IMG/VR virus record: IMGVR_UViG_3300031749_000018
Location: 1 to 36,502 of that record
Strand: one strand, 5' to 3'
DNA: 36,502 nucleotides
DNA from: a virus
The position numbers and the translations under genes are program-made. Shown here one piece after another: positions 6,271 to 34,838 of the stretch. The notes beneath the pieces are model-generated. The model was not told the origin of the DNA. It did no database searches and was given only the letters and a program-made list of their open reading frames with translations. The number at the start of each line of letters is the position of its first letter. The first letter of the stretch is position 1.

Positions 6271-8544
6271 CTACAGCCGGGCCTGCGTTCCGTAGAGGAC
6301 CGTGCCCCAGGGCCCCAAGATGGGCGCGCTCGCCTGGCGGCGTGACGGGGGCCCAATCGTCTCGCGCTCGCCTCGCCAGGCCCCCATTCTCTGCTGAGGT
6401 AGGATCTTCTGCTTCGCCCCCCTGGCGGCCCATCCCAGCCGGTACCGGGCGATCGCGTCCGCGGCCGTGATGATGATCCCGTGCCTGCGGTAAATCTGCA
6501 CGATCCTCTCGGCGGCCCTGGTGACGGCGCGGGGATCGCCAGATGCGAGGGCCTTCTGCGTGCCGGGGCTGTTCAGGTGGTCCAGCGACTCCTTAATCGC
6601 GAAGGCGCGCTGCCAAGCCGGCGAGCGGGGATCGAGGATCTCAGGCTGGAAGAGCTGCACGCCCGGCGGAATCTGCTGGGACTTGCTCTGCTCCGCCAGG
6701 ACCTGGTCGGCATAGCGCTGGATGTCGGACGCGATGGACTGCTGCGGCTTCCCAGCCTTGAGCCCGGCAAGAATTATGTGCGTCACCTGCGCAACGTAGG
6801 GGTCCTGCGTCGGGTCCAGCGTGTTGATGATCGCCTGAGAGCCCTGACCGGCCTGCCCGCCGCCCTGGCCCCCGAGGATCTTTGCCCACAGGGCGAAGGC
6901 CTGCGCGAGGCCAGAGTCCCCGGTAGAGCCAAGGTTTACAACGAGCGGAGACTGCGACAGGCCCGGCAGACCGCCGCCGGCCGCGCCGCCGGCCTCACCG
7001 CTCGCCGGCAGGGGGATGCCCGGCCCAAGGGACTGGCGCAGCAAGAACACCCGCCTCGCCCCTTCCTGCCAGGCCTGAGCCATCACCTGGTTCGGGTCAG
7101 CCAGGCCCATCGAGAGCTGATCCCGGTGCAGGGTCAGCACGTCGTCGACGCCCGCCTGAAACGCCCGCATCTCGGCCACGCTGAGCTGCAGCCGCTGCGC
7201 CGACTCAGCCAGCGCGATGCGCGCGGCCCGCTCCTGTTTTGTGGCGTCCGCCCGGGCTCGCGACAGCGCCCACCGCTTCTCCTCCTGCGCCAGCCTCGCG
7301 TCATTCATCCTCTTCATCTCGTCGAAGCGCTTTTGCGCGAGCTCCAGCTGCTGCTGCTGGTAGCGCGTGCGCGTCATGAGCGCCACGCTCTGATCGAAGT
7401 GGTAGATGAGGTCGTCCGGGTCCTCCGGGAGGGTTGCGGCGCTCGGCGGCAGCCAGCCTCTTTGCTTTCCGATGTTGACCAAGCTGTTGTAGAGCCTCAC
7501 CGTGGGCAAGAGCTCCAGCTCTTCCGCGGTGACGTTCCCAGTCTGGCGCACCCTGTGGACAACCGTCATGAGCCTCCCATCCAGCTCGTCGAGCTGCGCG
7601 AAGAAGTTGCGCTGGTTCAGGCCGCCCTGCGCCATGGTGAAGCCGCGCTCAACCGCCTGGCCAAGGTCGGGATCCGCCATGTACAGCGCGGTCACCGTCG
7701 CCGCCGGCACCTCGCTCACGTCGCCCCCCGAGAGGATGTACCGCACCCAGCCGGCTATGTCGTTCGCCGCCGGCTTGGGCGGCCCGGCCTCCTCGGGCTG
7801 GCGGGCGGCGGCCTCGCCGGGGGCCGGAAGCGCCACCGGCTGCGGCTGGGGGGCGGCTTCCGGCCTACCAGAAAAAGGAAGCGGCGAGAGCGCCACCGGC
7901 GCCGTCGCGGGCCTCGCCAACGCGTTCGCAAGGCTCAGCGTCTGCCAGGCCTGGGGGACACCCTGCGTCGGCGCGAGCGGCGCGGGCCGTGGCCTCCCGC
8001 TCAGCACGTCCTGCAAACTGAGCGCCGTCAGGTGGAACGCAGGAAACATCGACGCCGTCACGGAGGGCGGCGCCGCCCCCGCGCCCGGGCCTGGGGCTGG
8101 CGGCCCGGCGCCCAGGAGCTGGCGGTAGACTGACGCCCGCCACGCGAGCCGTGGTATCGTCGCCTCGGCCTCGGCCTTCGCCACGTCGGCCTTCTGCTGC
8201 TCGGTGGCGAGCTGCAGCCTCTGCATCTGCTGCTCCAGCGTCCCGGCCGGCTGCTCCTTCGGCAGGTAGCCCAGCGGGTCGAAGCCATAGACCCGGGTGA
8301 AGTATTCCCTCACCGGGCCCGACCGTAGGATCTGCCACTTGTCGGGGTCGACCGAGGCCTCCCCGATGATCTGCATCGCTTCCTGCTTCCTTGCCTGCTC
8401 CGACAGCTTCACATCCGCAAAGGCCGTCGCCAAGCGCGCGATGGTGTCCCACAGGTTCGCCTGCCCCGCGATCGGGGCCTGCTGAACCGTGGGCTGCATC
8501 CACTGCCACGATGGCTGCGGCCAGGCGCCTGCGGGTGCGCTCAT
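6271..8544 (-). CDS. Internal virion protein, T7 gp15-like by size and order
   Basis: The product has 757 residues. The ATG at 8544 is preferred because GGAGGATAGGC precedes it; it lies three bases after the stop of the 192-residue gene. The protein is rich in Gln and Ala, with long helical or coiled stretches (for example the segment around QQQLELAQKRFDEMKRM) and a proline-rich low-complexity part near residues 140-260. No enzyme motif is visible. Length and position match T7 gp15 (747 residues), a ring component of the ejection machine. The exact fold is not established here. Confidence 0.7.
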   Translation of the reverse strand: MSAPAGAWPQPSWQWMQPTVQQAPIAGQANLWDTIARLATAFADVKLSEQARKQEAMQIIGEASVDPDKWQILRSGPVREYFTRVYGFDPLGYLPKEQPAGTLEQQMQRLQLATEQQKADVAKAEAEATIPRLAWRASVYRQLLGAGPPAPGPGAGAAPPSVTASMFPAFHLTALSLQDVLSGRPRPAPLAPTQGVPQAWQTLSLANALARPATAPVALSPLPFSGRPEAAPQPQPVALPAPGEAAARQPEEAGPPKPAANDIAGWVRYILSGGDVSEVPAATVTALYMADPDLGQAVERGFTMAQGGLNQRNFFAQLDELDGRLMTVVHRVRQTGNVTAEELELLPTVRLYNSLVNIGKQRGWLPPSAATLPEDPDDLIYHFDQSVALMTRTRYQQQQLELAQKRFDEMKRMNDARLAQEEKRWALSRARADATKQERAARIALAESAQRLQLSVAEMRAFQAGVDDVLTLHRDQLSMGLADPNQVMAQAWQEGARRVFLLRQSLGPGIPLPASGEAGGAAGGGLPGLSQSPLVVNLGSTGDSGLAQAFALWAKILGGQGGGQAGQGSQAIINTLDPTQDPYVAQVTHIILAGLKAGKPQQSIASDIQRYADQVLAEQSKSQQIPPGVQLFQPEILDPRSPAWQRAFAIKESLDHLNSPGTQKALASGDPRAVTRAAERIVQIYRRHGIIITAADAIARYRLGWAARGAKQKILPQQRMGAWRGERETIGPPSRRQASAPILGPWGTVLYGTQARL

Positions 8545-8546
8545 GC

Positions 8547-9125
8547 CTATCCTCCGCCCATGTGCGTCGCCTTCCACCAGACCGTCGCGGCCTGGAGAAG
8601 CTGGTCAAAGGGACTCGCTCCGTAGGTGACCTGCACTGGGGTTCCCGTGCCCATGGCCGCGATCCGGGCGAACAGCTCCTGGAGCTGCGGCCACATCTGG
8701 CTCGCCGCCCACTGCTGTTCGGCCCGCCGCTGGCGCTCCGGCCACAGGTAGCCGTAGCGCAGGTTCGCCAGCTGCTGCGCCTGCTCGCCGGCCAGCTCGG
8801 TCATCGCCGCCTGCCGCCCGCTGGAGAACGTCAGGCCGGCCTGGAGCCAGGGCGCTAGCGCCTGCTGCTGCTGTTTCTGGTAGTAGGCCAGGGCCGGCCC
8901 CTGCGCCGCCTCGATGGTCTGCTGCAGGAGGGGATCGCTCGTCACGTCCAGGTAGGACGGCAGCAGGTAGCTCTGCCACAGGGCCAGGCTGGGCTGCCAC
9001 AGGCTGCGAGCTGCCTTGACCGGGGCTTGCAGACCAGACGTGACAGCCCCTTGCAGGGCCTCGATACCCGGCCAGCGGCCCACCATCTCGTACTGGGATT
9101 TAGGCCTCCCGAACAGATTGTGCAT
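8547..9125 (-). CDS. Internal virion protein, T7 gp14-like by size and order
   Basis: The product has 192 residues, with start ATG 9125 behind AGGAGGTTGG. It is helical and very Gln/Ala-rich (for instance YYQKQQQQALAPW), like the small ejection protein gp14 of T7 (196 residues), which forms the outer-membrane pore. It has a moderately hydrophobic central part (SLALWQSYLLPSYL) but no signal peptide. It overlaps the end of the GNAT-like gene by 26 bases and is followed directly by the 757-residue gene. The assignment is by order and length. Confidence 0.65.
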   Translation of the reverse strand: MHNLFGRPKSQYEMVGRWPGIEALQGAVTSGLQAPVKAARSLWQPSLALWQSYLLPSYLDVTSDPLLQQTIEAAQGPALAYYQKQQQQALAPWLQAGLTFSSGRQAAMTELAGEQAQQLANLRYGYLWPERQRRAEQQWAASQMWPQLQELFARIAAMGTGTPVQVTYGASPFDQLLQAATVWWKATHMGGG

Positions 9126-9525
9126 TGTCGCCCAACCTCCTACTGAGCAGGATGGCCACCGGCTCCAGGCCCCAGCGCCTGTGCAGCGCCTTCAGCCGGG
9201 CGCCCCGGTAGCTCGCGAACAGGCCCTCGGCCCGGCGCGCCTGCGCCCACCGGCACAGGAACTGCCACATCGGCCGGCTGGCGGCCCGGCTCGACTTCGC
9301 GGCCGCGATGTAGGCCGCCCTCGTTCCGAACCACCTGCCGACAAGCGCCACAAGCGCCCCCTTCAGCTCGCCGTCCGCCTCCGCCATAAGCGCAAGCCCA
9401 TGGTCGCCGACGATCGCCTCGCCGATGAGCGGTAGCAGCTCCACCGGGTCGACGGTGAGCTCGGCGTCAGCAAAGTAGGCCAGCAGGCGCCCGGCGTCGT
9501 CGATGCCCGCCTGGCGCAGGCTCAG
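9100..9525 (-). CDS. GNAT-fold protein, T7 gp13-like by position; probable CTG start
   Basis: The reading frame carries a GNAT-type pattern: SLRQAGIDDAGRLLAYF, then GLALMAEADGELKGALVALVG, then a degenerate C-terminal part. No ATG, GTG or TTG gives a sensible N-terminus. A CTG at 9525 overlaps the TGA of the upstream gene (CTGA) and yields a typical GNAT opening (M)SLRQAGIDDA, 141 residues in all. T7 gp13 has 138 residues and the same place before gp14, and such phage proteins are often GNAT-like. The acetyl-CoA loop looks poorly kept, so a structural role is more likely than acetylation. Confidence 0.6.
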   Translation of the reverse strand: MSLRQAGIDDAGRLLAYFADAELTVDPVELLPLIGEAIVGDHGLALMAEADGELKGALVALVGRWFGTRAAYIAAAKSSRAASRPMWQFLCRWAQARRAEGLFASYRGARLKALHRRWGLEPVAILLSRRLGDNAQSVREA

Positions 9526-25947: not shown

Positions 25948-26039
25948 CCTCGCCACCACTGCCGCGCGGCCCCCCGAAAAACCCTGCCCTTGGCGGCCGC
26001 CCGCTACAAAAAAAATAAAAAAAAATTTTGCAAGGGGGC

Positions 26040-26068
26040 TTGACACATACTGCGAATCATGGTATGGT
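26040..26068 (+). promoter_or_regulatory. Strong sigma70 promoter for the integrase block
   Basis: TTGACA (26040-26045), a 17-base spacer and TATGGT (26063-26068) form a near-consensus promoter. It is preceded by an A-rich tract (26007-26028) that could serve as an UP element. Transcription should start near 26075. The leader then folds into CCGGGCC-ggga-GGCCCGG (26080-26097) before the ribosome site of the first gene. Confidence 0.85.
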
Positions 26069-28009: not shown

Positions 28010-28086
28010 CTGCTCCTGCCAAACTCCCAAACGATCCGGGCCGTCGCCTCCGGGTCGTCATACCTGACGCGCCAGAGGGCGGTCGC

Positions 28087-28463
28087 GGTTCGCACGGACC
28101 TGACGGGCCTCACAGATCCAGTGGCTCGCACTAAGCTTCCGGTCCTCACGCATCCGGTGGCTCGCACTGCCATTCCGGGCCCCACGGAGACTGCGGCTCG
28201 CATGGTCCGTCCGGGCCTCATTCGCGGTGTGGCTCGCAGACAAGCCAGGCTCGCCCCGGGCCTCAACACATGAACGGCTCGCATCGGCAGCCTGGGCCTC
28301 ACTGTTCTCACGGCTCGCACTCACCTTTCGGGCTTCTGGGGTGCGGTGGCTCGCATGCAACTGCGGGTCACAAAGCCGGAGCGGCTCGCAAGTTTGCAAT
28401 GGGTCTCATCCCAGGCGCGGCTCACAAGTGCAGCACGGGCATCATGTAACGCCTGGCTCGCCG
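28087..28463 (-). repeat. TIGR-type guide RNA array: alternating 9-base repeats with 9-base spacers
   Basis: Read on the minus strand, repeat R1 (NTGCGAGCC) and repeat R2 (NTGAGGCCC) alternate, each followed by 9 variable bases, so the period is 36. There are eleven R1 copies (plus-strand starts 28087, 28123, 28159, 28195, 28231, 28276, 28312, 28348, 28383, 28419, 28455) and ten R2 copies (28105, 28141, 28177, 28213, 28258, 28294, 28330, 28365, 28401, 28437). One spacer has 8 bases and one interval has 18. Spacers are all different. The array begins two bases after the stop of the IS110/Nop5-like gene. This matches tandem interspaced guide RNA arrays, whose 36-nt RNAs carry two 9-nt guides. 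The open frames across it are by-products of the period. Confidence 0.87.
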
Positions 28464-28464
28464 C

Positions 28465-29217
28465 TCACCTCTCGATCACCGGGATGACGCCGGTGTGGCC
28501 CAGCACCTCGATCACGTACGGCAGGCGCGTCGGCAGGCCGGCCAGCTCGCGGCCCCGCTGCCAGTAGTGCGCGAGGAATACCTTGGCCACCTTCCGGCGG
28601 GCCATGCTGTCGATGTGCCCGTCCGAGAAGCGCAGCAGCGGCGTCCCGTCCCGCTTCAGCCGGGGCGGGTCCCACGGCATCGGCTCGGGGTGCAGACGCC
28701 GCAGCCGCTCCTTTTCGCCGACATAGAGCTGCCGGTACCCGTCACCGCAGCGCACAAAGCTCTCCGCCGCCTTCCAGGCCAGCACGCGCAACCGCGGGTT
28801 CCAGTTCGCTTTCTGGCCCCGCTGCCGCCTAGGGGCCAGGCCGTCGACGGTGTGCAGGCCGGCGTAGGCCCACAGCTTGGAGACGGTGTCAAACCGTGAT
28901 AGGTCTGCGGCCCAGGCGAACAGGCCGCCGGCGATGCAGGGGCCGACTCCCTTCACGTCCTTCAGCCACAGATCCCAGAGCGGCTGGCCCCTTATGCGCT
29001 GCTTCACCATGGCCCGCAGCTCGGCCTCCTGGCGCGCCAGGCGCTCATCCATCCAGTCCTGAAGGGCTTTGGCCTTGTCTGCGTCAAGGCCTTGGCGCTC
29101 CACGGCCGCCCGAATGCGGTTCTCGCACTCCAGGCGCATCTGCTGCACATCGTAGTACGCCTCCACGAGGACGCGCAGCTCTGTGCGGTCCAGAGGCGCT
29201 GGCGCTGCCTTTCTCAT
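28465..29217 (-). CDS. tas: Tas-like protein (IS110 C-terminal/Nop5-like), nuclease-free
   Basis: The product has 250 residues from ATG 29217, overlapping the previous stop (ATGA). Residues 10-75 form a long helical or coiled region. Residues 84-158 (WLKDVKGVGPCIAGGLFAW, then LSRFDTVSKLWAYAGL, then NPRLRVLAWKAAESFVR) are the helix-hairpin-helix Transposase_20 domain of IS110-family enzymes, related to the Nop domain of box C/D RNA proteins. The C-terminal part (MARRKVAKVFLAHYWQRG, YVIEVLGHTG) is the standard ending of a phage-borne group. The N-terminal DEDD/RuvC catalytic domain of IS110 is absent and no HNH is present. With the adjacent array this fits a TasA-type, RNA-guided DNA-binding protein rather than a transposase. 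Confidence 0.85.
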   Translation of the reverse strand: MRKAAPAPLDRTELRVLVEAYYDVQQMRLECENRIRAAVERQGLDADKAKALQDWMDERLARQEAELRAMVKQRIRGQPLWDLWLKDVKGVGPCIAGGLFAWAADLSRFDTVSKLWAYAGLHTVDGLAPRRQRGQKANWNPRLRVLAWKAAESFVRCGDGYRQLYVGEKERLRRLHPEPMPWDPPRLKRDGTPLLRFSDGHIDSMARRKVAKVFLAHYWQRGRELAGLPTRLPYVIEVLGHTGVIPVIER

Positions 29218-30167: not shown

Positions 30168-31094
30168 TCATTGGTCCCGTAAGGCGCTCCCCTCGGCCCC
30201 GGCGTGGCCGCGCAGCAGCCTGCCCACGGCCTCCGACAGGCCGAGGGCCAGCCCCCGCCACGGCGCCCTGAAGGCAGCCGCGTGCGGGTGGCCGCCGCCG
30301 CCCATCAGCTCGGCCACGGCCCTCGCGCCCGGCCCGCGCACCCCCACGGTCACCGCCCCGCCGGCGGCGTGCGCGGTCTGGAGGGCCACCAGGGCCACCG
30401 GCGCGCCGAGCTCCTCGGCCAGCGCGCCGCCCACCTCGGACACCGAGCCGCAGGGCAGCACGCCCACGTGGACGTCGCCGGCCCCCGGCGCGCTGGCGGT
30501 CCAGAGCGAGTCCCTCGCCGCGGCCTCGCCCCGCGTCCGGTCGCGCAGCCTCATGGCCGCGCCCAGTGTGACCAGGCTGACCAGGGAGGGCTCCGCGGTC
30601 AGCCACGGCCAGCCCGGCCGCAGGATGCGCGCCACCGCCTCGGCGCCGGCTGCCGCGACGAGCGCCGACAGGGCGCGCGACGGCTCGAAGCACGGTGAGT
30701 CGGCCAGCATGTAGTCGGAGGCCTGCGCCCAGTCGGCCCAGTCGTCAAACGCGACGCACTCCAGCAGCGTGACCTCCCGGCCGTCGGCCGCGAGCTGCCG
30801 CATCACCCGGGAAATCAGCTTGGCCGAGCACAGGCCCGGCTCGTAGACGACCTGCGCCCGGACCCGGCCGCCGCGGTCGGCGTGGTGGTCGAGGATGACC
30901 GTCCCCCGGTCGGCCAGGGCGGGATGATCGTCCGGGAGGTTCAGGTCCGCGATGATGCACGGCGCGGCGTCAATCTGGCCCTCCTGCCCGTACGTCAGCC
31001 ACACCGGCTGCCGGTGGCCCAGCGCCCACAGCGCGAGCCCCGAGAAGAGCCCGTCGAGGTCGTCGGCGTGGCTGTACACCCTCATCGGCTTCAT
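30168..31094 (-). CDS. DHH/DHHA1-family phosphoesterase
   Basis: The product has 308 residues. The ATG at 31094 (GGAGGT eight bases upstream) overlaps the resolvase stop (ATGA). Metal-site motifs of the DHH family are HADDLDG (9-15), ADLN with Asp50, and LDHHAD (68-73). The C-terminal DHHA1 domain shows the substrate-binding GGGGHPHAAAF near residue 265. Relatives include RecJ, oligoribonuclease NrnA and cyclic-di-AMP phosphodiesterases. The substrate here could be short oligonucleotides left from DNA or RNA breakdown, or a cyclic nucleotide signal. The sequence does not settle this. Confidence 0.85.
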   Translation of the reverse strand: MKPMRVYSHADDLDGLFSGLALWALGHRQPVWLTYGQEGQIDAAPCIIADLNLPDDHPALADRGTVILDHHADRGGRVRAQVVYEPGLCSAKLISRVMRQLAADGREVTLLECVAFDDWADWAQASDYMLADSPCFEPSRALSALVAAAGAEAVARILRPGWPWLTAEPSLVSLVTLGAAMRLRDRTRGEAAARDSLWTASAPGAGDVHVGVLPCGSVSEVGGALAEELGAPVALVALQTAHAAGGAVTVGVRGPGARAVAELMGGGGHPHAAAFRAPWRGLALGLSEAVGRLLRGHAGAEGSALRDQ

Positions 31095-31621
31095 GGTCTC
31101 ACACCTCCGTTCCTTATCTCGCCGCCGCAGCGCGTCCCTATCCAGCCGGCCGGCGGTCGCAGCCTCCGGGCATACTCCGCGATGCAGATGGCATCCGCCA
31201 GCCCGTCCAGCAGCCTCCCCCGCGGGGTGCGCAGGCGAACCGCGGGCCACAGGCGCTGCGCCACCTGGGCCACCGCCTCCTTGCGCTTTCGGCGATCCCG
31301 CGGGAGCGTGCCGCAGACCTCCTTCTGCCACCGGGCCGGGGACACGCGGACAAGCGGCAGGCCCAGCGCCATGGCGACTCCCTCCCAGAAGCCACCATGC
31401 CAGCCCACGCGGTAGTTGGCCGTGGCGCTGACGCCGGCGAAGGCGTGCGTGTCCTCCAGGGCGACCAGCAGGGGCCGCTCGAAACTGGCCCAGGCGGACA
31501 GCGTCCGCAGCGCTCCTTGCAGGTCCGCGAGGCTGTGACAGGTGCACGTGCCGCCCGACACGATGCACAGGCCTCCATCAGCCCCGGGATCGATTCCCAC
31601 GACGGCTCTTGCTTCCGGCAT
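31091..31621 (-). CDS. RuvC-like Holliday junction resolvase
   Basis: The product has 176 residues from ATG 31621 behind AAGGAGGAGGATC. The RNase H-fold acidic residues are Asp11 in GIDPGADGG, Glu56 in VALEDTHAF, and Asp139/Asp143 in LLDGLADAICIAEY. This is the phage RuvC-like pattern. The enzyme would resolve branched DNA from replication and recombination before packaging. It is set among the replication genes and overlaps its upstream neighbour by 44 bases. Confidence 0.87.
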   Translation of the reverse strand: MPEARAVVGIDPGADGGLCIVSGGTCTCHSLADLQGALRTLSAWASFERPLLVALEDTHAFAGVSATANYRVGWHGGFWEGVAMALGLPLVRVSPARWQKEVCGTLPRDRRKRKEAVAQVAQRLWPAVRLRTPRGRLLDGLADAICIAEYARRLRPPAGWIGTRCGGEIRNGGVRP

Positions 31622-31889
31622 GATCCTCCTCCTTCGTGGCTGCTGCCAGGTGCTGCATGCGTTTGGCTGCGCGCAGCCACTTCTGGCGCACCTGCTCCAG
31701 GTAGGCCGGCCCTACTCGGGGATGAGCGCGGGCCCGCAGGTAGTGCCGCCGGAGCGTGTCTGGCTTGAGGGGATCCTCCAGGTTCGCCCGGTTCCACTGC
31801 TTGGCCATGTCGGCCCAGCGGATGCGGCCTCCCAGGGGACGGAAGCTGCCCCGGAGCAGCTCCAGCTCAGGAACCGCACGGTAGGCCAC
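31578..31889 (-). CDS. Small basic protein, possibly DNA-binding, unknown
   Basis: The product has 103 residues from GTG 31889. The ribosome site is weak, so an internal ATG at 31808 is possible. The sequence RWADMAKQWNRANLEDPLKPDTLRRHYLRA suggests a helix-turn-helix-like part, written here as two pieces: RWADMAKQWNRA and KPDTLRRHYLRARAH. The C-terminus is rich in Arg and Lys. It lies between the origin-side gene and the resolvase. No family is certain. Confidence 0.6.
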   Translation of the reverse strand: MAYRAVPELELLRGSFRPLGGRIRWADMAKQWNRANLEDPLKPDTLRRHYLRARAHPRVGPAYLEQVRQKWLRAAKRMQHLAAATKEEDHAGSKSRRGNRSRG

Positions 31890-31907
31890 GAACCTCAGTC
31901 CATACCG

Positions 31908-32171
31908 TCACCTCCCCTTTCGTTGCTCGAGGCCCGGCAGCGGGAGCTGCTTCCGCGGTCCGTCAGGCTGCGGCTCACCGAAGACGAGCGCCCGTAGCTC
32001 GGCGTCGCCCTGGCAGAACAGCTCCACGATCCGGGGCTTCTCCTGGGCCACGCGGCGCAGGTGTTGCGCCAGCGCCACCTGCTTCTTGTCGCCGGGCGCG
32101 CTGACGAACACCCGCATGGCCCGGTCCCATTCCCGCCGGACCTCGGGGTCCGACCAGTCTATGGCCCGCAT
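31908..32171 (-). CDS. Small protein next to the origin-like region, unknown
   Basis: The product has 87 residues from ATG 32171 (GAGG just upstream). It is charged and helical (DPEVRREWDRAMRVFVSAP, KKQVALAQHLRRVAQEK), ending in a Pro- and Lys-rich tail (RKQLPLPGLEQRKG). It starts directly after the iteron and palindrome region, so it could bind there or help replication. No known initiator domain is recognised. Confidence 0.65.
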   Translation of the reverse strand: MRAIDWSDPEVRREWDRAMRVFVSAPGDKKQVALAQHLRRVAQEKPRIVELFCQGDAELRALVFGEPQPDGPRKQLPLPGLEQRKGR

Positions 32172-32185
32172 GCCTCAGCCCCCTG

Positions 32186-32287
32186 GACATATGCAGTGCA
32201 GCCGTGCACTGCATACGTCGCGGCGCGTGATGCGGAGCCCGGACCGGCCCCGGGACCTGTGAAGTGCAGCCGTGCACTGCACAGGTC
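32186..32287. repeat. Twin 34-base palindromes with identical cores
   Basis: Two inverted repeats share AGTGCA-gccg-TGCACT. The first has arms 32186-32200 and 32205-32219 (one mismatch in 15). The second has arms 32254-32268 and 32273-32287 (one mismatch in 15). Their centres are 68 bases apart. The core is kept while the outer arms differ but stay self-complementary, which means structure or dyad binding is selected. They lie between the AT-rich part and the next gene. Confidence 0.8.
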
Positions 32288-32309
32288 GGACATGTGGTGC
32301 AGGACCCGT

Positions 32310-32505
32310 CGTATTAATGTATGTATGAAGTAGTAGTGTATGTATATATGCACACGTTGCACGAGTGCACAAGTCCGCCGGGACACGTGCAATGCACATG
32401 TCCTGCACATGTCTGCATACGTCTTGCACATGTGCAGTGCACATATCCCGGATGTGTGCATTGCACACGTTCTGCACACGTTGCACACGTCGCGCACATG
32501 GGTAT
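32310..32505. other. Origin-like region: AT-rich stretch plus TGCACAYGT iterons
   Basis: After the primase-helicase stop comes a cluster of TGCACAYGT-type 9-mers. Full or one-mismatch copies start at 32349, 32393, 32404, 32414, 32425, 32438, 32462, 32473 and 32482, with degenerate copies at 32358, 32366 and 32493, many spaced 9-11 bases (one helix turn). Next to them, 32310-32350 is an almost pure A/T/G stretch (TATTAATGTATGTATG, GTATGTATATATG), an unwinding element in a GC-rich genome. Iterons plus AT-rich DNA plus palindromes beside the primase-helicase are the classic layout of a replication origin. No initiator gene of a known family is seen. Confidence 0.72.
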
Positions 32506-34838
32506 TACGCGTCCGCGACATCCCTCGTGGCCTCCTCGCCTGACACCTGGGCCAGCTCGTAGCGGACGTGCCTGCCCTCTCTGCGCCGGATCACCTCCTG
32601 ACGCCTGCCCATGGCGGCCATGACCTCCTTTGCCAGCCGCGCAGAGCAGCCCGCCTCCTTGGCGACCGCCTGCGCCAGGTCGCTCGAGACCATGGGGCCG
32701 CCCTGCAACAACCTGCGGACTGCGTCAGCCGCCTGCTCGGCCCTCTCGCTGGCCGTCTCGCTGACCCAGTCGCCGCGCATGAGGATCGAACCGCCATGCG
32801 GGCCGTCGAGCTTCTCGAGGTAGAACGGTCTGGCGACGTCCTCCGCAAACCGGCTCTTCTCGTGGGAGACGATGCGGGGCCCGTCGGGCCTGCCCGTCAC
32901 CATCAGGACCGAGTCCGCCCGGCTCACGATCGCCTGAGCACCCAGGACCGAGGACCCCAGGTCGTGGGGATCCATGCCCGGCTGAAACTTGCGCCGGTGA
33001 TGGACGACGATGATGGCGCATCCCACTCTGGCCGCGAACCGGCGGAGCCTTTGCATCTCCCGCCCCATGTCGCTGTTGCTCCGAATGTCCGTCCAGGGCG
33101 GGGCCGCATCGGCGAGGGTGTCGATGACGATGACCTTGACGTGGTACCGGCGCACCTCGTGCTCGAGCGCCGCAATCTGGGCGGTGTGCCACACCGGGGC
33201 GTCGAAGTACCGCAGGGGGCGCTGGGCCTCGCTGGCGGGCTCTTCCGGCTCCTCGTCGAAGAAGTCATCCTCCTCGGGCTTGAGAGCGCCGTTGCCCAGC
33301 GGCGTCTCCACGTCGGCTCCGCGGTCGAGGTCCAGCAGCCGGGCCTTCATTCCGGCCAGGCCGAGCTCGTAGTCGATGTACATCGCGCCGCCGCGCTGCT
33401 CGATCGACCAGTGGCCCAGCCACTGGCGAAAGCCGTTTGCGACGGCGTGACACAGGCTGACGGCCAGCCAGGACTTGCCCAGGCGGCTGTCCCCGGCGAT
33501 CACGGTGACCCCGGTCAGGGGGATGAGCGGCCTCACGAGCCAGCGCACCTCGATGTCCATCCGGAGGAGCTCGTCGATGCCCACGCTCTCCAGCACTGCC
33601 GGCGCAGACAGGTCGAGGCTGGCCAACAGGCGCTCCCGCCGCTCCTGCTTCTCGGCCTCCGTGCGCCGCCAGCCCTCCCGGTAGCTCTCCCAGGCGACGG
33701 CCTGCTCCCGGTAAGCCCAGCAGTCCAGCACCATCTTGGCGTGAGCCCTGACCGTGCGCGGGTCCACCTCGATCGAGGCCAGGCGCCGCAGCAGCTCGTC
33801 GCCTCCGGCCTTTTGCAAGAGCTGGCGCTCATGCAGCCTGGCCCGCAGCAGGCTCGCGTCGACGGGATCTCCCTTGCCGTGGAGGTCGAGAATCGCCTCG
33901 CAGATGACCGCGTGCTCGGGAACCCAGAACGCGCGCGGCGTCAGGAGGGCCTCCGCGATGAAGATGGCCTCCTTGCTGGCGAGCATCGCGGCCAGCACGG
34001 CGCGCTCCGCATCCTCGTTGTAGGGCAGCTCGTGGATGGCCACCGGGGACTGCGGCTCGGGCTCCCACCTGGGGGTCTTCGCGACCAGCTCCAGGAGCTC
34101 TTCCTTGCTGTGGCCGGCCGCCAGCCAGTCCGTCACGTCGCCCTTCTCGGCCACGTCGAGGCGCACGACCTTCACGCTGGCGGCGCGCCCCCACAGGCTG
34201 CGCGCCCTGTGTGCGGCGGCGGCAAGGCCAGCCGCATCGTTGTCGGGGATGACTATCACGTGCGCGAGCTTCAGCTGCTCCGTGAGGCGGCGGTCCCACC
34301 GCCCCGATCCCCCAGACGGCGTCGTGGCGCACAGGCCCAGCGCCTCCAGTGAGTGCACGTCCTTCTCGCCCTCCACGAGAAAGACCGGCTCCCCCGCGAC
34401 CACCGCCTGGCGCACCTGGGGCAGCCGGTACAGCACCGGCCGGACGCCCTCCAGGTTCCAAATCCAGCCGCCCTGACCGTCAGGCCGGCGCTGGGCGAAG
34501 GCCTTGGGCCTGTAGCGGACAACCTGGTAGAGGAGGTTGCCCTCCTCATCTGTGTAGTCGTAGAGAGCGACAATCTCGCGCCCGCCGCCCACATCCTGGG
34601 CCGGCAGCCGTTCTCTTCGCGGAGGCTCTTCGAACAGGTCGGCCATGCTCAGGCCGAGCGCGGCCACAATCCTCTCTGTCGAGCAGCCAGCATGACACCG
34701 CAGGAGGATCTTGCCGTCGGCTTCCCTTATGGAGAGGGAGGGCTGGTGGTCATCATGGGCGGGGCACAGGGCCTGCCAGCTGTCGGGCCCGGCCCGCCGC
34801 ACTTTGCGAAGTCGAGACAGCAAGTCTGTCGCCCGCAC
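32505..34838 (-). CDS. Fused primase-helicase: CHC2, Toprim, DnaB-N-like and RecA-like ATPase
   Basis: The product has 777 residues from GTG 34838 (GGGAG eight bases upstream). Domains in order: CHC2-type zinc ribbon (Cys25, His28, Cys48, Cys52); Toprim-like part with VEGEKD (155-160) and IPDNDAAG (197-204); a segment at 272-375 like the DnaB N-terminal domain (LPYNEDAERAVLAAMLASKE); and a RecA/RepA-type ATPase with Walker A GDSRLGKS (449-456), Walker B KVIVIDT (568-574) and IIVVHHRRK. A winged-helix-like tail follows (about 700-770). It would prime and unwind DNA at the fork. It is next to the origin-like region. Confidence 0.88.
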   Translation of the reverse strand: MRATDLLSRLRKVRRAGPDSWQALCPAHDDHQPSLSIREADGKILLRCHAGCSTERIVAALGLSMADLFEEPPRRERLPAQDVGGGREIVALYDYTDEEGNLLYQVVRYRPKAFAQRRPDGQGGWIWNLEGVRPVLYRLPQVRQAVVAGEPVFLVEGEKDVHSLEALGLCATTPSGGSGRWDRRLTEQLKLAHVIVIPDNDAAGLAAAAHRARSLWGRAASVKVVRLDVAEKGDVTDWLAAGHSKEELLELVAKTPRWEPEPQSPVAIHELPYNEDAERAVLAAMLASKEAIFIAEALLTPRAFWVPEHAVICEAILDLHGKGDPVDASLLRARLHERQLLQKAGGDELLRRLASIEVDPRTVRAHAKMVLDCWAYREQAVAWESYREGWRRTEAEKQERRERLLASLDLSAPAVLESVGIDELLRMDIEVRWLVRPLIPLTGVTVIAGDSRLGKSWLAVSLCHAVANGFRQWLGHWSIEQRGGAMYIDYELGLAGMKARLLDLDRGADVETPLGNGALKPEEDDFFDEEPEEPASEAQRPLRYFDAPVWHTAQIAALEHEVRRYHVKVIVIDTLADAAPPWTDIRSNSDMGREMQRLRRFAARVGCAIIVVHHRRKFQPGMDPHDLGSSVLGAQAIVSRADSVLMVTGRPDGPRIVSHEKSRFAEDVARPFYLEKLDGPHGGSILMRGDWVSETASERAEQAADAVRRLLQGGPMVSSDLAQAVAKEAGCSARLAKEVMAAMGRRQEVIRRREGRHVRYELAQVSGEEATRDVADA

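Follow-up and report, generated by a model that had tools for sequence, protein, structure and literature searches.

What does a dense cluster of short repeats do beside the primase-helicase gene of an uncultured phage, and which protein acts on it? The cluster lies in IMG/VR record IMGVR_UViG_3300031749_000018, whose 36502 bases are referred to here as the window. Judged by its anatomy, its conservation in a related contig, and comparison with more distant relatives and with a described PICI origin, the region at 32186-32501 is very probably the phage's replication origin, as an initial annotation had proposed. The adjacent primase-helicase is probably the initiator that targets this origin.

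The genome and its repeat-dense locus

The two ends of the window share 221 bp at 99.1% identity, and a related contig, L001, is continuous across the junction, indicating a circular map. The gene content includes terminase, portal/head-tail adaptor, major head and tail families, together with a RuvC-like resolvase, the primase-helicase, and weak RecT-like and exonuclease-like matches. The features of the locus are listed below.

31578-31889, minus strand: 103-aa open reading frame rich in basic residues, without a PHROG or Pfam match
31908-32171, minus strand: 87-aa open reading frame of unassigned function, the downstream neighbour, without a PHROG or Pfam match and with an 87-aa counterpart in L001
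32186-32219, no strand: palindrome 1, an inverted iteron pair, part of iteron set 2
32254-32287, no strand: palindrome 2, an inverted iteron pair, part of iteron set 2
32187-32286: iteron set 2, two inverted iteron pairs
32303-32352, no strand: AT-rich stretch, proposed unwinding element (from A+T content and identity with L001)
32349-32501, no strand: iteron set 1, about 13 copies of TGCACAYGT (from motif counts and spacing)
32383/32393, 32428/32438 and 32452/32462: three head-to-head pairs with a 1-bp spacer, within iteron set 1
32505-34838, minus strand: primase-helicase gene, 777 aa, proposed initiator (Pfam, PHROG)
32553-32759, minus strand: C-terminal winged-helix domain, about residues 693-762, proposed to bind the iterons (AlphaFold2, Foldseek, VIA)

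Anatomy of the putative origin

The initial annotation described roughly nine to twelve TGCACAYGT-type 9-mers, and the counts bear this out. All 11 exact TGCAYAYGT sites of the window fall within 32187-32490, while 100 dinucleotide-preserving shuffles yield a mean of 0.40 sites and never more than 2, so that none of the 100 reaches 11. The narrower TGCACAYGT occurs in eight exact copies across the window, every one in 32349-32490, and when up to two mismatches are allowed, 30 of the window's 134 matches lie inside 32150-32510. The head-to-head pair TGCANTGCA appears six times, always within the origin region (0.48 expected). A scan for 8-mer repeat density ranks 32186-32501 as the densest place of the window with a score of 82, followed by an unrelated array near 28051 with a score of 73.

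Plus-strand copies, degenerate ones included, follow one another in start-to-start steps of 68, 71, 17, 27, 11, 10, 11, 13, 24, 11, 9 and 11 bases. The proposal that they often stand about one helical turn apart thus holds for seven of the 12 steps. The array directly follows the primase-helicase gene, as claimed: the gene ends at 32505, and the first iterons begin less than 20 bases beyond it. Most of the array (32349-32501) sits between the stop codon and the AT-rich stretch, with the palindromes on the far side. The core of this stretch, 32313-32352, contains 30 A+T among 40 bases (mean 12 of 40) and is the richest 40-mer of the window, in agreement with the 40-base element first described; at other lengths, 26004-26033 is richer as a 30-mer and 26008-26057 ties as a 50-mer. 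A helical-turn array of short repeats beside an AT-rich stretch is the arrangement of an iteron origin.

The two 34-bp palindromes are also present, each with 15-bp arms, one mismatch and a 4-base GCCG loop. Each proves to be an inverted iteron pair, 23 bp from start to start, and the layout is therefore one of two iteron sets flanking the AT-rich stretch. A third iteron palindrome, at 32431-32467, outranks both.

Conservation in a related contig

L001, approximately 90% identical over the origin part, keeps the same layout, and the 9-mers persist in it with a nearly unchanged TGCA core. Across 17 compared iterons (two of which overlap), changes by position number 0, 0, 0, 1, 3, 4, 5, 3 and 1; a single one of these 17 changes falls in the TGCA half, and the variable half mostly exchanges C for T or A for G. 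Identity between window and L001 is 131/147 in the iterons, 43/46 in the AT stretch (32303-32348) and 89/111 in the remainder. L001 also differs from the window by an insertion of ~930 bp at 7970-8903, corresponding to ~31899 in the window, which contains two successive open reading frames that look alike and have no assigned function.

Wider searches for the motif itself gave little. Two adjacent TGCACAYGT sites occur in 22 stretches of viral contigs, none with more than three to four sites together, and were treated as chance. An Rfam search gave no match, and distant blastn matches in phages were confined to short stretches of the primase.

Skew analysis does not support an origin at this place. 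The GC-skew minimum, which the initial annotation had suggested checking, lies elsewhere, at 26.0 kb and 6.3 kb from the array; the two extremes are 6.3 and 12.8 kb away. The AT-skew maximum is 0.7 kb from the array and is not significant. We rejected GC skew as an origin marker, its extremes lying off the array both here and in the cultured phage RHph_Y3_1 discussed below. Two outcomes together had been named as counting against an origin: a skew minimum elsewhere, which is what we find, and loss of the 9-mers in relatives, which is the opposite of what L001 displays.

The primase-helicase as candidate initiator

The 777-aa protein matches a PHROG DNA primase family (2e-42). In Pfam, it matches Zn_ribbon_DnaG (residues 5-49) and Toprim_2 (153-236), both below the cut-off, followed by a DnaB N-terminal domain (271-371) and AAA_25 (421-617). 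Unlike T7 gp4-like primase-helicases, which work at the fork and do not bind an origin, it does not stop after the RecA-fold domain, and its L001 homologue likewise has a 111-residue tail; among RecA-fold relatives, 44 of 69 are tail-less.

The tail of the protein is predicted to form a winged helix. An AlphaFold2 model of residues 673-777 places helices at 22-39, 46-57 and 61-73 and strands at 77-82 and 85-90 (numbering of the modelled piece), with a pLDDT of ~90 over piece residues 31-90; in the full-length model the tail has low confidence. Foldseek relates the tail to SmtB-like and other winged-helix proteins, with a best E value of 1.2e-3 and zero matches at E <=0.001. VIA likewise returns winged helices, with Z scores reaching 10.3 and cullin WHB domains, which were not selected for binding DNA, at the head of the list; fold similarity of this kind does not by itself establish DNA binding. 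A 70-residue piece of the tail gives a below-cut-off match to AlkZ-like proteins, which we take to be a winged-helix family. The initial annotation, having seen no recognisable initiator, had looked to the small neighbouring proteins; the predicted winged helix at the end of the primase-helicase speaks against that view.

Several steps can be envisaged for how the primase-helicase might act. The winged helix would bind TGCACAYGT iterons on both sides of 32303-32352, gathering primase-helicase subunits at the origin, and the AT-rich duplex would then open. The RecA-fold ring could close on the exposed single strand and unwind, while the N-terminal CHC2/Toprim primase would make the first primers. 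Loading of a DnaB-like ring normally requires an initiator and a loader; here, a separate loader may not be needed.

Arrays at the 3' end of related genes

We collected 108 loci that encode relatives of the primase and scanned 97 of them, those with a closed open reading frame of 500 residues or more and sufficient flank; the other 11 had an open or short reading frame or too little flank. The whole-protein search of viral contigs (alignment A1) kept the best 80 of at least 600 stretches. The 97 loci are accordingly a subset of all such loci, with a bias towards the primase domain, and 49 of them fall in a single 40% identity cluster. The window of densest 8-mer repeats coincides with the 3' end of the gene in 29/97 loci, including one (L130) whose repeats look coding, and with the 5' end in 0/95. 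Counted by 40% identity clusters, this becomes 20/37 at the 3' end and 0 at the 5' end, with a chance expectation of 4.5% per locus. The repeats of these arrays mostly differ in sequence from those of the window. A search with the C-terminal helicase half of the protein retrieved the L001 contig alone, once more (as L116).

Among RecA-fold relatives, arrays accompany 12 of 25 proteins with a tail of at least 90 residues and none of the 44 without (Fisher p 6e-7, L130 left out). With L130 counted, the classes stand at 13/25 for tailed RecA-fold, 0/44 for tail-less, 5/11 for D5/SF3, 5/6 for L011-like and 6/11 for other proteins. By clusters, the tail contrast is 10/18 against 0/2 (p 0.24), and the link between tail and array is therefore not established independently of descent, with few clades carrying it. 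Thirteen of the 25 tailed RecA-fold loci, L130 counted here, have no top-ranked array, although L008, L045 and L071 come near the top.

Co-variation between iterons and tails was also considered and set aside: groups are suggestive, and the overall statistic is weak. GGAACCA is common to L037, L041 and L045, which have related tails (L041 is not top-ranked), and CGGACA to L008 and L009. Similarity between iterons is weakly correlated with similarity between tails (Mantel p 0.046), and at least as well with similarity between helicases. An automatic test for two iteron sets and an AT-rich stretch, built on a single 7-mer, flagged 19/34 loci and missed the window.

Six annotated phage and plasmid records were scanned for an array at the 3' end of the primase-helicase gene. 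In the cultured Rhizobium phage RHph_Y3_1, the gene for an AAA_25 primase-helicase has a GTTCCCA array at its stop codon; no other repeats in the 40-kb genome are as dense (69 vs 16), and the keto-skew maximum lies 86 bp away (p 0.35). The array is top-ranked in plasmid pSR14, and scores 41 vs 50 elsewhere in a Streptomyces plasmid record and 30 vs 32 elsewhere in BruhMoment; no array was found at the gene in Salinibacter phage M1EM-1 (13) or Microcystis phage Mae-JY30 (11). The sister Streptomyces plasmids L136 and L139 encode near-identical tails, with an array at the gene in L136, where it ranks third within the plasmid, and not in L139. The Streptomyces plasmids NZ_CP058979 and CP108844 list no other recognisable replication gene among 24 and 27 genes in their incomplete tables, which fits an initiator role for such proteins.

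Alternative readings of the locus

Chance or an assembly artefact can be dismissed almost entirely, since the shuffles never approach the observed site count and L001, an independent contig, has the same array. The array might instead be an operator or a partition/incompatibility site, at which a regulator controls downstream genes or copy number while replication starts elsewhere. Arrays that mix inverted and direct sites are also used by repressors and centromere-binding proteins, some of which are winged helices (TubR and AspA are among the Foldseek fold matches), and the skew extreme lies away from the array. We nonetheless hold this to be improbable: 31500-33000 has no sigma-70-like promoter, the sole promoter type covered, and no terminator; in relatives, the array accompanies the primase-helicase gene; and an AT-rich stretch between two iteron sets is what passages of PMC6092414 describe for PICI origins. 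It is somewhat easier to imagine, though still unlikely, that the palindromes are single-strand initiation hairpins recognised by the primase beside the iterons, like ssiA/ssiB of RSF1010. The two palindromes are near-identical with the same loop, and an excerpt of PMC4234260 attributes both iterons and two stem-loops to RSF1010. An unusually strong hairpin (p < 0.05) occurs in five of 15 array-bearing RecA-fold loci, the window included; the other ten have none, and hairpins are thus unsupported as a general feature of such loci. Moreover, arm mismatches in L001 preserve iterons rather than pairing, and the best hairpin there is a different one. The palindromes being less perfect in L001, their sequences favour a reading as inverted iteron pairs, that is, binding sites, over priming hairpins.

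The locus could also be an origin whose iterons are recognised by one of the small proteins (31908-32171 or 31578-31889) or by a host protein, which would then bring in the helicase in the manner of lambda O or RSF1010 RepC. Both genes adjoin the array, the 103-aa product is basic, and DnaB-like helicases with separate initiators are known, RSF1010 RepC and SPP1 GP38 among them (available parts of PMC4234260 and PMC8965321). Against this, neither product matches Pfam or PHROG, and the L001 counterpart of the 103-aa protein is shorter by a net 19 residues, although the iterons are kept. The array also follows the helicase gene across many relatives, in which we did not find the two small proteins. 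The 87-aa product, which L001 retains, may still have such a role. We regard a small-protein or host initiator as a less probable arrangement, albeit one deserving some weight, and favour the primase-helicase as the protein that binds the iterons.

Comparison with known replication systems

The closest layout is that of the PICI/SaPI origin (Pri-Rep-ori), placed 3' of the replication gene with two iteron sets flanking an AT-rich region; plasmids carrying such a pri-ori are maintained, according to the available text of PMC6092414. The window has its array immediately 3' of the replication gene and two sets (32349-32501 and 32187-32286) around 32303-32352. As a positive control, we scanned an island of E. 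coli CFT073, taken from its gene content to be EcCICFT073, and the densest repeats of its 49 kb lie 5-10 bases past the primase stop (43 vs 28). Unlike PICIs, satellites with an incomplete virion gene set, the window represents a phage genome that includes terminase, portal, capsid and tail genes, and its helicase consists of AAA_25 with a DnaB N-terminal domain, whereas the CFT073 primase is D5_N/DUF5906/Pox_D5. The window origin therefore likely combines a PICI/SaPI-like layout with an SF4/RecA-fold primase-helicase as self-targeting initiator.

P4 alpha-type initiators share a C-terminal winged helix with the window protein (in the latter a predicted fold only), which has no D5_N/Pox_D5 match and thus lacks their D5/SF3 helicase. 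The helicase of P4 alpha belongs to SF3, that of the window to the RecA fold. Like the window protein, P4 alpha unites a Toprim-type primase, a helicase and a C-terminal winged helix, and its winged helix binds origin repeats (passages of PMC4234260). The same source, as far as its available part goes, places the origins of archaeal plasmid pRN1 (ORF904) and phage BIP-1 directly downstream of a primase-helicase-winged-helix gene; these systems differ from the window in having an SF3 helicase, an archaeo-eukaryotic primase, and a large stem-loop without iterons as origin. It further describes RepA, RepB' and RepC of RSF1010 as a RecA-fold helicase, a primase and an iteron binder at an iteron origin; these are three separate proteins, whereas the window seemingly uses one. 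The self-loading helicases SCCmec Cch2 and SaPI Rep use their C-terminal domain to bind direct repeats that lie a short way downstream of the gene encoding them (excerpts of PMC7581432), as we infer for the window; unlike the window protein, Cch2 has no fused primase and is a 3'-to-5' helicase.

What sets the window apart from these systems is the fusion of a primase and a tail to a RecA-fold helicase that has a DnaB N-terminal domain, and this in a phage that encodes virion proteins itself. Our search of the open-licence literature found no account in which an AAA_25/SF4 primase-helicase combines a winged helix with iterons 3' of its gene. There is perhaps an even chance that such proteins form a broad, undescribed class of phage and plasmid initiators, in which a primase and an SF4/RecA-fold helicase (AAA_25, accompanied here by a DnaB N-terminal domain) are joined to a rapidly changing C-terminal winged helix that targets iterons 3' of its own gene. 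If so, one protein would find, open and prime the origin, forming a compact replication module with RHph_Y3_1 as a cultured example, and origins of uncultured phages and plasmids could be sought just past the primase-helicase stop codon.

Other repeats and neighbouring genes

Long arrays occur in L010 at 7650-8050 and 8950-9200, at least 0.8 kb past a primase-helicase gene, where GGAGTTCA boxes alternate between GCGAGCC and CGGTCGC arms. The second-densest repeats of the window, at 28086-28462, form an array of ~11 units. Its GGCTCGCA-like boxes recur for the most part at intervals of exactly 36 bases, with variable stretches and a second, GGGCCTCA-like box between them; no comparable tandem array was reported in L001 10900-12298. 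This array adjoins the first of three further genes.

28465-29217, minus strand: 250-aa protein matching only PHROG 4285 'transposase' and Pfam Transposase_20 (IS110-type), with a counterpart in L001
24639-25568, minus strand: 309-aa protein with a Transposase_mut match
30168-31568, minus strand: 466-aa protein whose C-terminal part matches a DHH/DHHA1-type phosphoesterase

The 250-aa product may represent a domesticated gene rather than a mobile element. The Transposase_mut match starts at profile position 166, suggesting that the 309-aa protein is possibly truncated, and its gene sits in an AT-richer, strongly skewed part of the window near 24-26 kb. The gene for the 466-aa protein overlaps the reading-frame region of the RuvC-like gene.
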